Below, piece after piece: positions 12,254-14,812 of a DNA stretch of 64,000 nucleotides. How positions within the stretch are numbered: position 1 is the stretch's first letter; every line of letters starts with the position of its first letter. Where the stretch lies: the NCBI RefSeq assembly GCF_002005225.1, contig NZ_CP019724.1, positions 2,356,001 to 2,420,000 on the forward strand, given 5' to 3'. The translations under genes were made by a program, and so were the position numbers. This DNA is from Streptomyces pactum (GTDB lineage: Bacteria > Actinomycetota > Actinomycetes > Streptomycetales > Streptomycetaceae). The notes beneath the pieces are model-generated. The model was not told the DNA's origin. It worked only from the letters and a program-made list of their open reading frames with translations, and made no database searches.

Positions 12254-13438
12254 TCAGCCCGCCGCGGGTACCCCGACCGGCGCCTGGGGACCCACGTACC
12301 GCGCCGCCGGACGGATGATCTTCGAGTCCGAGGCCTGCTCCAGGATGTTGGCGCTCCACCCCACCACCCGCGCTGCCGCGAACGTCGGCGTGAACATCTC
12401 GCGCGGCAGACCGCACAGCTCCATGACCACGCCCGCGTAGAACTCGACGTTCGTGTGGAGCTCGCGCCCCGGTTTCAGCTCCGCGAGGATCACCTCGACC
12501 TGTCGCTCCACCTCGACGGCGAACTCCACGCGCGGACCACCGAACCGCTGTGCCACCCCTCGCAGCATCCGGGAGCGCGGGTCCTCCGTGCGGTAGACCG
12601 CGTGACCGAAACCCATGATGCGGTCGCCGGCCAGTACCCGCTCACGGATCCAGGGGTCGATGCGGTCGGGAGTGCCGATCGCGTCCAGGGTGTCCAGTGC
12701 CCGGCTCGGCGCGCCGCCGTGCAGCGGACCGGACAACGCCGACACCGCTCCGGCCAGGCAGGCCGCCACGTCCGCACCCGTCGAGGCGATGACCCGCGCG
12801 GTGAAGGTCGACGCGTTGAAGCCGTGATCAATGGTGGAGATCAAGTACTGCTCGACCGCGCGCGTCCGCTGCTCGTCCGGCTCGGTACCGGTCAGCATGT
12901 AGAGGTAGTTGGCGGCGTACGGCAGGTCCTCGCGAGGTTCCACGGGTTCGAGTCCCCGCCCCAACCGGTGCAGCGCGGTGAGCAGCGTCGGTACGGCCGC
13001 GGCGGCCACCAAGGTCTCCTGGCGGCGCTGGTCGGCCGACAGGTCGTACACGGGCCGGAAGCCCAGCGCCGCGCCCAGCAGGGAAAGGCCCGTGCGCATG
13101 CCGGCGAGCGGGCCGGAGCGTCCGCCGGCCGCGGCGATGGCGGGCAGCGCCGTGCGTACCGCGTCGGGAAGCCGGCGCAGGGCCGCGGTCTCGGCGGCGA
13201 AGGCGGCGCCCTGCCGGACGTCGGGCAGTTCGCCGTGGACCAGGAGATGCCAGACGTCCTCGAAGCCGCGGCTCTGTGCGAGCTCGACGGCCGAGTACTG
13301 ACGGTAGTGGTAGAAGCCCTCGAGGCCTCGCACGTCACCGACCTCGGTGTCGGCCACCACGACGCCCGCGAGCCCTCGCGGCACCTCGACGGGTGTTGCG
13401 GCGGGTGTTGCGGCGGGTGCGGTTCTATTGACGGACAT
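12254..13438 (-). CDS. Citrate synthase family protein (citrate / 2-methylcitrate synthase)
   Basis: This 394-residue citrate synthase has the two expected active-site histidines, in GPLHGGAP and in MGFGHAVYRTEDPRSR, and the C-terminal large-domain motif ending RPAARYVGP. At the position of the catalytic aspartate (usual NVD) the sequence reads HTNVEFYAG, so glutamate replaces aspartate. The start at 13438 has ggaggagg just upstream; an upstream in-frame ATG at 13459 lacks support. It is divergent from a second, HTH-fused citrate synthase, and the two share a 114-nt regulatory region with overlapping palindromes. It condenses acyl-CoA with oxaloacetate; whether acetyl- or propionyl-CoA is preferred cannot be told. 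Confidence 0.92.
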   Translation of the reverse strand: MSVNRTAPAATPAATPVEVPRGLAGVVVADTEVGDVRGLEGFYHYRQYSAVELAQSRGFEDVWHLLVHGELPDVRQGAAFAAETAALRRLPDAVRTALPAIAAAGGRSGPLAGMRTGLSLLGAALGFRPVYDLSADQRRQETLVAAAAVPTLLTALHRLGRGLEPVEPREDLPYAANYLYMLTGTEPDEQRTRAVEQYLISTIDHGFNASTFTARVIASTGADVAACLAGAVSALSGPLHGGAPSRALDTLDAIGTPDRIDPWIRERVLAGDRIMGFGHAVYRTEDPRSRMLRGVAQRFGGPRVEFAVEVERQVEVILAELKPGRELHTNVEFYAGVVMELCGLPREMFTPTFAAARVVGWSANILEQASDSKIIRPAARYVGPQAPVGVPAAG

Positions 13439-13474
13439 GATTACCTCCTCCGACTGCACCTAACTGTCCATACT

Positions 13475-13509
13475 TGACTGAAAGTCTGTCAATATTGATT
13501 GAATCAATG
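13475..13509. promoter_or_regulatory. Overlapping palindromes between the two citrate synthase genes
   Basis: Three nested inverted repeats lie in an unusually A/T-rich patch. They are ttgac(9 nt)gtcaa at 13475-13493, the perfect tcaatattga at 13490-13499, and the perfect 15-mer attgattgaatcaat at 13495-13509. They sit 37-71 nt from the upstream gene start and 44-78 nt from the downstream one, so a bound protein could control both promoters. The HTH-bearing citrate synthase next door is the obvious candidate regulator, but this is inference. Confidence 0.6.
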
Positions 13510-13552
13510 CACGGCTCAAGTCAGTACCGGCAGGATCGATACGGTGGCCTCC

Positions 13553-14812
13553 ATGCGCGATCAAGAGCCCGAGCACCCCGACCACGGCGAGCACCGCCTG
13601 ACCACCAGGGAGGCGGCCGAACTGCTCGGGGTGAAACCCGAGACCGTGTACGCGTACGTCAGCCGCGGCCGGCTCGGCAGCCGACGCACGCCCGGCGGCC
13701 GGGGCAGCACCTTCGACGCCGGGGAGGTACGGGCCCTCGCCCGACGCAACCGGCGCGACGGCGGCACCCCTGCGGCATCCGGCCAGGAGTTGGCCGTGCG
13801 CACCGGCATCACCCTCATCGAGGGCGACCGGTTCTACTACCGGGGCGTCGACGCGGTCGAACTCACCGCGCGCCACAGCTACGAAGAGGTGGCCGAGTGG
13901 CTCTGGACCGGGCAGTTGCGCCCCGGCGTCGCCTTCACCGCGCCCGAGGCCTCCGTGGCCCTCGCCCGCCGGGCCGTCGACGCCCTGCCCGAGCACGCCG
14001 GCCCCACCGACCGACTGCGCGTCGCGGCCATCGCCGCCGCGGCCGCGGACCCACTCCGTTTCGACCTGTCCGAGGACGCCGTGCTGGGGACCGCGCGCGT
14101 CCTCATCCCCACCCTCGTCGCCGCGCTGCCGCCCGTACTCGACGACGGGCACGACCGGGACCCGCTCGCCCATCGCCTGTGGACGCGGCTCAGCGGACGG
14201 CCCGCCGACGAGGCGGCGCTGCATGCCCTCGACCGGGCGCTCTCCTTGCTCGTCGACCACGACCTGGCCGCCTCGACGCTCGCCGTACGCGTCGCGGCGT
14301 CGGCCCGGGCGCATGCCTACGCGGCCGTGTCCGCAGGGCTCGGCGTGATCGAGGGCCATCTGCACGGCGCCGCCGGCGGACTCGCCCACCGGCTGCTGCT
14401 GGAAGTGCTCGACCAGGGCAGCGCGGCACCGGTGGTCGCGGAGGAGCTGCGGGCCGGCCGCCGCATCCCCGGACTCGGTCACCGGCTCTACCCCGGAGAG
14501 GACCCACGCGCGCGTGCACTCTTCGCCCTCCTGGAGGACATGCCCCGGGCGGCGCCCGCACTCGCGGCGGCCCGCGACATCCAGGCCACCGCCGCCCGCC
14601 ACACCCCGTTGCACGCAAACGTCGACCTGGCACTCGCCGTGCTCACCGCATCCTGCGGCATGCCCTCCACGGCAGCGGAGACGATCTTCGCGGTGGCCCG
14701 GACGGCGGGCTGGATCGCGCACGCGCTGGAGGAGTACGGGGAGCGGCCGCTGCGTATGCGTCCGAGCGGACTCTACTCGGGTCCCAGGCCGCCTCAGCCA
14801 CTGCCGGAGTAG
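13553..14812 (+). CDS. Citrate synthase with N-terminal helix-turn-helix domain
   Basis: This is a 419-residue protein. Residues 16-62 form a MerR/excisionase-like HTH (LTTREAAELLGVKPETVYAY, then VSRGRLGSRRTPGGRG and a wing before RALARRN). The rest is a citrate synthase domain whose active-site residues are all present: His in EGHLHGAAGG, His in GLGHRLYPGEDPRARA, and Asp in ANVDLALAVL. It lacks the long C-terminal extension of hexameric enzymes. A DNA-binding domain on a metabolic enzyme suggests a metabolite-responsive regulator, probably of the divergent citrate synthase gene and itself. The start at 13553 is the ATG immediately before the HTH; an in-frame ATG at 13499 falls inside the palindromes and is less likely. 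Confidence 0.88.
   Translation: MRDQEPEHPDHGEHRLTTREAAELLGVKPETVYAYVSRGRLGSRRTPGGRGSTFDAGEVRALARRNRRDGGTPAASGQELAVRTGITLIEGDRFYYRGVDAVELTARHSYEEVAEWLWTGQLRPGVAFTAPEASVALARRAVDALPEHAGPTDRLRVAAIAAAAADPLRFDLSEDAVLGTARVLIPTLVAALPPVLDDGHDRDPLAHRLWTRLSGRPADEAALHALDRALSLLVDHDLAASTLAVRVAASARAHAYAAVSAGLGVIEGHLHGAAGGLAHRLLLEVLDQGSAAPVVAEELRAGRRIPGLGHRLYPGEDPRARALFALLEDMPRAAPALAAARDIQATAARHTPLHANVDLALAVLTASCGMPSTAAETIFAVARTAGWIAHALEEYGERPLRMRPSGLYSGPRPPQPLPE

Follow-up and report, generated by a model that had tools for sequence, protein, structure and literature searches.

A winged helix-turn-helix/citrate synthase fusion beside a conserved TTGAY array: a candidate family of local transcription factors

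Why should a citrate synthase carry a DNA-binding domain, and why should it lie back to back with a second citrate synthase? The question is raised by positions 12254-14812 of a 64,000-nucleotide (nt) stretch of Streptomyces pactum DNA (NCBI RefSeq assembly GCF_002005225.1, contig NZ_CP019724.1, positions 2,356,001 to 2,420,000 of the forward strand). This whole stretch is called the window, and all coordinates refer to it. A sequence-only reading had noted a helix-turn-helix (HTH) ahead of a citrate synthase domain, a divergent citrate synthase gene and palindromes in the spacer between them, and had proposed an enzyme that is also a transcription factor. Our analysis favours, with a probability of about 0.82, the reading that the fusion, here called HTH-CS, is a local transcription factor, in which a winged HTH acts on an array of TTGAY half-sites (Y is C or T) and the citrate synthase domain serves as a dimerisation and ligand-sensing module. 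What was computed directly is the protein architecture, the conservation of the array, its single occurrence in the genome and its association with the protein across phyla. Comparison of these sequences suggests that HTH-CS proteins from several phyla make up one family, whose members act locally on transcription and use the citrate synthase domain as a sensor.

The fusion gene, its partner and the array between them

The HTH-CS frame translates from an ATG at 13553 to a stop at 14812 into 419 residues. Its Pfam matches, HTH_17 at residues 16-66 (E 1.4e-8) and Citrate_synt at residues 81-404 (E 9e-62), bear out the order of domains proposed earlier. The partner, read divergently from an ATG at 13438, matches Citrate_synt only (E 1.2e-107). 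The spacer between the two genes has the 114 nt reported for it and is indeed A/T-rich, with 49% GC compared to 71% for the window. The main features are:

13553-14812, plus strand: HTH-CS gene, of the SCO5831 type by gene order (translation, Pfam, homologues)
13595-13756, plus strand: winged HTH domain, residues 15-68 (Pfam HTH_17, AlphaFold2 model)
13637-13663, plus strand: putative recognition helix, residues 29-37, inside PETVYAYVSRG (near-invariant across phyla; role assigned from the fold)
13793-14764, plus strand: citrate synthase domain, residues 81-404, with H271, H310 and D358 (Pfam, alignment, fold)
12254-13438, minus strand: divergent type II citrate synthase, 394 residues, with NVEFY (Glu for the catalytic Asp; Pfam, alignment)
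13439-13552, no strand: intergenic spacer (sequence)

All three repeats described in the spacer were found: a 15-bp palindrome, with two 7-nt arms around one centre base that is unable to pair with itself, a 10-bp palindrome, and a 5-9-5 inverted repeat (TTGAC-N9-GTCAA, arms at 13474-13478 and 13488-13492). All of these inverted repeats belong to one array of TTGAY half-sites, which overlaps the predicted promoter of the partner:

13474-13508, no strand: array of four half-sites, TTGAC (13474-13478), TGTCAA (13487-13492), TTGAT (13495-13499) and ATCAA (13503-13507) (footprint in 78 spacers, uniqueness in the genome, like layout in other phyla)
13489-13498, no strand: core 10-bp palindrome TCAATATTGA (sequence; its core TCAANNTTGA precedes 24/28 HTH-CS genes from outside Streptomyces)
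13494-13508, no strand: 15-bp palindrome ATTGATTGAATCAAT (sequence, genome scan)
13487-13492, minus strand: predicted -35 element TTGACA of the partner, also one half-site of the array (sequence; letters 99-100% conserved)
13463-13468, minus strand: predicted -10 element GACAGT of the partner, at 18-nt spacing (ACTGTC at a fixed distance from the array in 72/78 spacers)
13540-13545, plus strand: predicted -10 element TACGGT of HTH-CS, 7 nt ahead of the ATG (TACGGT 6-8 nt before the ATG in 71/78 spacers)

A separate block, TAACTGTCCA (13461-13470), lies beside the array and overlaps the predicted -10 of the partner; it is shared with the S. coelicolor MtrA site given in excerpts of PMC12323332.

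By itself, a palindrome arm of 7 nt is only modestly unusual (19 of 2000 dinucleotide-shuffled spacers reach it); the weight of the repeats comes from their conservation and not from palindrome length in the window alone. Conservation was assessed in 80 fetched loci, 79 from Streptomyces and one from an unspecified actinobacterium. A divergent partner match was present in 78 of them (the loci numbered L008 and L015 in our collection lack it) and L023 could not be aligned; with these three excluded, 77 loci and the window gave an alignment of 78 spacers. The 22-nt core TGTCAATATTGATTGAATCAAT occurs with 0-2 mismatches in 69 of these (33, 23 and 13 spacers, respectively), with 3 in seven, and with 4 and 5 in one each. 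The half-sites TGTCAA, TTGA and TCAA are 99-100% conserved, followed by the outer TTGAC arm with 90-99%; no such conservation is seen in the N7 that separates TTGACT from TGTCAA or immediately downstream, on the side of HTH-CS. The distance from the array to the predicted -10 of HTH-CS varies from 14 to 74 nt, and that to the predicted -10 of the partner is fixed in the 72 spacers listed above, which places the array on the predicted promoter of the partner. The HTH-CS messenger RNA is possibly leaderless, judging from the position of its -10.

The array is unique in the 8.55-Mb genome, a single contig. The palindrome at up to 2 mismatches occurs once, in the spacer, and the same holds for the exact composite TCAANNTTGAN{3,9}TCAA (control 0). 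A wide regulon was considered and dropped, neither pattern being found elsewhere in the genome. In a sample of 150 Streptomyces genomes, HTH-CS was found in 97, the partner in 94 and the pattern TGTCAANNTTGATNNNATCAA at up to 2 mismatches in 105. With 0-1 mismatch, this 21-nt pattern was present in 91/97 genomes having HTH-CS and in 0/53 lacking it (hand count); the matches in 14 genomes without HTH-CS all carry 2 mismatches. Six genomes with HTH-CS depart from this: G353 and G423, whose arrays have insertions of 1 and 2 nt, G391, with a fragmented match, and G023, G193 and G398 (G numbers denote genomes of our sample). Off-locus matches in G433 and G360, each with 2 mismatches, were set aside. 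Within the genus the association is in part trivial, as the array and the gene lie at the same locus.

Rearranged loci separate the elements to some extent. About 2.4 kb lie between the two genes in L023, where the array remains beside the partner. Both genes are on the same strand in L117 (G326), with a copy of the array ahead of each; the copy before HTH-CS has the altered half-site TGTTAA and an intact palindrome. In G182 (L113/L114) and in L015, other sequence interrupts the partner near codon 41 and the array is retained; G307 keeps the palindrome beside a broken partner. G321 has the partner without HTH-CS; here the array is absent and ACTGTCCAT is retained. As a side observation, the rest of the partner gene in G182 is found on the same contig at a distance of about 163 kb, and the likeness of G182 and L015 also past the cut suggests that a mobile element prefers this site for integration.

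Downstream of HTH-CS lie genes for a histidine kinase and a response regulator. The genome holds four citrate synthase genes by Pfam, of which the locus provides two. The order of SCO5828-SCO5831 in S. coelicolor is described in excerpts of PMC9739823; from gene order and the site distances in PMC12323332, HTH-CS would correspond to SCO5831 and the partner to SCO5832. The SCO5831 protein has been detected and was more abundant under phosphate proficiency, according to excerpts of PMC9739823 and PMC8981147.

The site follows the fusion protein, not the neighbouring gene

At 1e-40, 27 of 296 genomes searched in the phylum had a match; 20 of these (L093-L112) belong to other genera. L105, which begins at a contig end and has no match over the HTH part, was left out. 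Relatives on plasmids include those of Embleya, Nonomuraea, Deinococcus, Comamonadaceae, Cupriavidus, Agrobacterium, Chelatococcus, Azospirillum, Roseomonas, Pararhizobium, Paraburkholderia, Caballeronia and Thioclava. From part of the plasmid hits listed, 23 loci were picked for taxonomic spread before their upstream DNA was inspected. A first set comprised 28 loci (19 actinobacterial and 9 plasmid); 14 more were then added, for a total of 42 loci and 280,960 bp.

A variant of the site, TCAA-N2-TTGA-N5..9-TCAA, precedes HTH-CS genes of 31-50% identity in other actinobacteria, Deinococcus, Alphaproteobacteria and Betaproteobacteria. In the first 28 loci the core lies within 170 nt upstream in the 24 cases listed above and the composite in 23, compared to means of 0.085 cores and 0.005 composites in 200 dinucleotide-shuffled sets. 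Elsewhere in the same loci there are two composites in 148,626 bp, namely the matches in L107 and L140. The whole loci of apparent misses were scanned, the site being expected at the head of the gene cluster. Across the 42 loci there are 43 exact composites, 39 of which (in 34 loci) lie within -260 to +30 of the start of the HTH-CS hit; the remaining four (L107, L140, L150 and L152) lie upstream of the first gene of a co-directional cluster containing HTH-CS. In L150 and L152 the intergenic region of the composite also holds a second inverted repeat, TGTTGATTCAATGAATCAAG in L150 and differing by one base in L152, upstream of the start of a short-chain dehydrogenase/reductase gene.

The neighbouring genes vary. 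A partner citrate synthase lies on the opposite strand upstream of HTH-CS, at most 1.1 kb away, in 16/19 actinobacterial loci (with an intervening gene in L107), and likewise in the Embleya, Agrobacterium, Chelatococcus and Pararhizobium loci. At other loci HTH-CS is divergent from an HMGL-like gene (L094 and L135 by Pfam; L134 by eye, being similar to L094), a coenzyme A (CoA) transferase gene (L146, L147, L156), a gene for a 2-hydroxyacid dehydrogenase or for a transporter with such a dehydrogenase gene behind it (L136, L151, L153-L155; L137 by Pfam), or a DUF2332 gene (L145 and L148, from Roseomonas/Pseudoroseomonas). The last case is a possible hint at the function of the uncharacterised DUF2332 family. 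The exact composite is present at all these neighbours other than citrate synthase, except in L137 and L156.

The reverse situation is provided by a neighbouring genus, in which 7/31 genomes have orthologues of the partner (66-69% identity), none with an HTH-CS match at 1e-60. The core site was absent from the four partner loci without an adjacent HTH-CS that were inspected (L165-L168, three from this genus and one from G321; 4 of 8 such genomes). A more divergent HTH-CS may possibly exist elsewhere in those neighbouring-genus genomes. The site is thus kept beside varied neighbours and its core is missing at the lone partners inspected, which indicates that it tracks the HTH-CS protein.

The protein is conserved where contact with DNA would be made. 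The recognition segment reads TLYAYVSRG or TVYAYVSRG in 31/37 HTH-CS proteins from diverse taxa, and the other six have one or two changes (TIYAYVSRG in L133, TLYANVSRG in L141 and L149, TLYSYVSRG in L148, TLYAYASRG in L153, SLYSYVSRG in L156). In a tree of the citrate synthase domain, the 37 HTH-CS form one clade (local support 0.949) containing 0/20 of the other citrate synthases.

The AlphaFold2 monomer model (67 sequences, mean predicted local distance difference test (pLDDT) score 84.3) has a winged HTH at residues 15-68, with helices 18-25, 29-37 and 56-68 and wing strands 43-45 and 52-55. The pLDDT is 74-88 in blocks of ten residues from 11 to 60 and 67 in block 61-70. Helix 29-37 would be the recognition helix, to judge from the fold. 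The N-terminal domain is MerR-like, with 35.3 bits for HTH_17 (cut-off 27) and 26.4 bits for MerR (PF00376), the latter under its cut-off of 28.2. In place of a MerR coiled-coil dimerisation helix and effector domain, helix 56-68 is followed by a low-confidence linker (70-80) and then the citrate synthase fold. The nearest solved HTH structures are 6amk/6ama (E 0.0018-0.0024), which we take to be BldC; the NCBIfam model HTH_BldC gives E 2.1e-7 and 30.7 bits, far under its cut-off of 77. The C-terminal domain belongs to the citrate synthase superfamily (PF00285), and the 50 Foldseek hits listed are all citrate or methylcitrate synthases (best E 1.7e-14).

A proposed mechanism and its alternatives

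We propose that the winged HTH would bind TTGAY half-sites, recognising the core TCAA-N2-TTGA together with flanking inverted half-sites, and that a dimeric citrate synthase body would carry two HTH heads, placed on the inverted TTGAY arms. A ligand in the oxaloacetate or acyl-CoA pocket, presumably a 2-oxo acid such as oxaloacetate and/or an acyl-CoA, would shift these heads. At the S. pactum locus HTH-CS would control the divergent citrate synthase gene, repressing it until the ligand accumulates. Since the array includes the predicted -35 of the partner, repression relieved by substrate would be expected, and we regard this sign of regulation as somewhat better than an even bet. Relatives would control other local genes, several of them, by gene order, in acyl-CoA, 2-oxo acid or 2-hydroxy acid metabolism. 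What was found, a regulator beside a metabolic gene with the array in the shared upstream region, is the arrangement of enzyme-derived local regulators, our working analogy.

The regulatory part of the earlier proposal, an enzyme that is also a transcription factor, has thus gained strong computational support from an array that is conserved, unique in the genome and faithful to HTH-CS across phyla and neighbours. Its claim that the protein controls itself fared less evenly: autoregulation is plausible outside Streptomyces, given a site that is usually found immediately ahead of the HTH-CS gene, but in Streptomyces the array stands at a variable distance from the HTH-CS -10 and is absent from four loci that lack the partner.

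Several observations weigh against a local transcription factor. HTH-CS is kept without partner and without array in L008, L118 (G023), L119 (G193) and L120 (G398), L118 and L120 probably sharing one loss, and genome-wide scans of G023, G193 and G398 at 2 mismatches gave no match to the pattern; these three genomes and L008 speak against a simple autoregulation model. Outside Streptomyces, 4/42 loci lack the exact composite (in L101 and L137 one base of the core is mismatched, and L093 and L156 keep the core without the third arm in place), and not all loci are independent (e.g. L138/L143 and L098/L101). A general rule that the operator frames a -10 hexamer was tried and dropped, such a hexamer occurring within one mismatch in 12/37 compared to 25% in shuffles; -10-like hexamers are not enriched in the operator, and promoter occlusion is therefore not a family-wide sequence signature. 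Finally, MtrA also binds the sco5831-sco5832 spacer of S. coelicolor (excerpts of PMC12323332) and is an additional regulator of the spacer.

In the four loci that retain HTH-CS alone, the ratio of nonsynonymous to synonymous substitution rates in the HTH is 0.11-0.50 pairwise, highest for L119, with a background median of 0.18. The HTH is apparently under purifying selection there, and the protein thus seems to be in use.

Persistence of HTH-CS genes without partner and array would also suit a bifunctional trigger enzyme, which makes citrate or another Claisen product and regulates as well, turnover or substrate occupancy being the signal. The His, His and Asp residues of citrate synthase are catalytic, and the earlier statement that HTH-CS has all of them held: H271 (LHG), H310 (GLGHR) and D358 (NVD) align with those of the best-scoring citrate synthase of the genome. 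They are present in 37/37 HTH-CS and, together with several Arg residues, invariant in 16 diverse ones. It is the partner, in a point overlooked earlier, that has Glu at the expected Asp. So has the B. subtilis citrate synthase chain 2c6x, and among 20 other citrate synthases aligned 18 have Glu (L003 included), one has Asp (L001, the best-scoring one of the genome) and one is cut short, compared to Asp in 37/37 HTH-CS. However, the retained residues, which are compatible with the earlier proposal of an enzyme that reads oxaloacetate or acyl-CoA, fit mere ligand binding too, and those flanking them vary among HTH-CS (NAST to AAST or PVST; GPLHGGA to HLHGAA or VRHGG). In Caulobacter, citB and citC are two citrate synthase genes with consecutive locus tags, and only CitB complemented an E. 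coli gltA mutant (excerpts of PMC7083601); CitC is a candidate HTH-CS. We hold the trigger enzyme to be possible, at clearly less than even odds. A similarly tentative extension of the local transcription factor would be a class of one-component regulators, spread across phyla, whose sensor is a catalytically complete citrate synthase domain: substrate-induced closure or turnover would move paired HTH heads on the four-half-site operator, and an active site for Claisen condensation would directly gate genes for like substrates (citrate synthase, HMGL-type enzymes, CoA transferases, 2-hydroxyacid dehydrogenases).

The sign of regulation could also be the opposite, HTH-CS acting as a MerR-like activator that recruits or realigns RNA polymerase. 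The palindrome abuts the predicted partner -35 on its upstream side, the 5-9-5 repeat extends into the promoter spacer, and the HTH resembles the MerR superfamily. The -35 is itself a half-site, however, on promoters that are predicted only, and the predicted spacing is 18 nt compared to 19-20 bp for MerR promoters (abstract of PMC8113463). We consider activation a minority possibility.

That the spacer is simply a promoter with sites of other regulators, MtrA or GlnR-like, beside a vestigial HTH, is very unlikely. According to the same excerpts of PMC12323332, the sco5831-sco5832 spacer supplied a probe, containing TTGACTTAACTGTCCA, that MtrA shifts, and in an mtrA mutant both genes were notably higher at late time points; in addition, ACTGTCCAT survives in the G321 locus, which has no HTH-CS. 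But the MtrA block lies outside the TTGAY array, and the core accompanies HTH-CS into Proteobacteria and Deinococcus, beside unrelated genes. A vestigial HTH was rejected, the domain being apparently under purifying selection. Least probable of all, and hardly credible, is a spare citrate synthase isozyme without regulatory role: public names do say citrate synthase or citrate synthase family protein, but the proteins form their own clade apart from the enzymes, carry an HTH Pfam entry beside the citrate synthase domain in the matches listed (the best 120 of each of two listings) and are associated with an operator.

Relation to known regulators

The domain architecture of HTH-CS is already visible in the Pfam annotation of public proteins. 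If these proteins are regulators, a set of tricarboxylic acid cycle annotations would be wrong. With so short an operator, TCAA-N2-TTGA-N5..9-TCAA, their targets can be predicted in each genome, and the identity of the divergent genes suggests that the signal is 2-oxo acid/acyl-CoA status. In Streptomyces, the local transcription factor would let a metabolite directly switch a citrate synthase gene already reported under MtrA control: citA3/citA4 (sco5831/sco5832) of S. coelicolor represent, by gene order and site, the same intergenic region, where the MtrA site adjoins the TTGAY array, and section 10 of that account leaves the HTH of SCO5831 unmentioned (PMC12323332).

BldC is similar to HTH-CS in HTH fold and sequence, but it has 68 residues and binds head-to-tail direct repeats, AATTXXXX(C), according to excerpts of PMC5859096. 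HTH-CS differs in its inverted TTGAY/RTCAA half-sites and in the fusion of the HTH to a citrate synthase domain of about 330 residues, and it falls outside the BldC family. Another citrate synthase homologue with a regulatory role is Caulobacter CitA, a moonlighting cell-cycle regulator adding to the citB/citC pair above; a DNA-binding domain of CitA is not described in the excerpts of PMC7083601. CcpC and CcpE are citrate-responsive transcription factors of carbon metabolism; CcpC is of the LysR type, and its abstract mentions no citrate synthase domain. Among the matches listed in the open-access literature, we found neither a DNA-binding citrate synthase fusion or a TCAA-N2-TTGA operator nor a citrate synthase member of the enzyme-derived regulators.

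In B. subtilis, the LysR-type CitR is encoded divergently from the minor citrate synthase gene citA. The likeness lies in a regulator divergent from a citrate synthase, and 2c6x, with Glu for Asp, is the best solved relative of our partner; unlike CitR, HTH-CS combines homology to citrate synthase with a MerR/BldC-like HTH. The joining of an HTH to an enzyme domain is a known design, found in enzyme-derived DNA-binding regulators such as BirA, PutA, NadR and MocR/GabR. HTH-CS resembles these in pairing an enzyme fold with a DNA-binding domain that would report on the substrate of that fold, and, if our reading is correct, the citrate synthase fold joins the enzyme folds that serve as transcriptional sensors.

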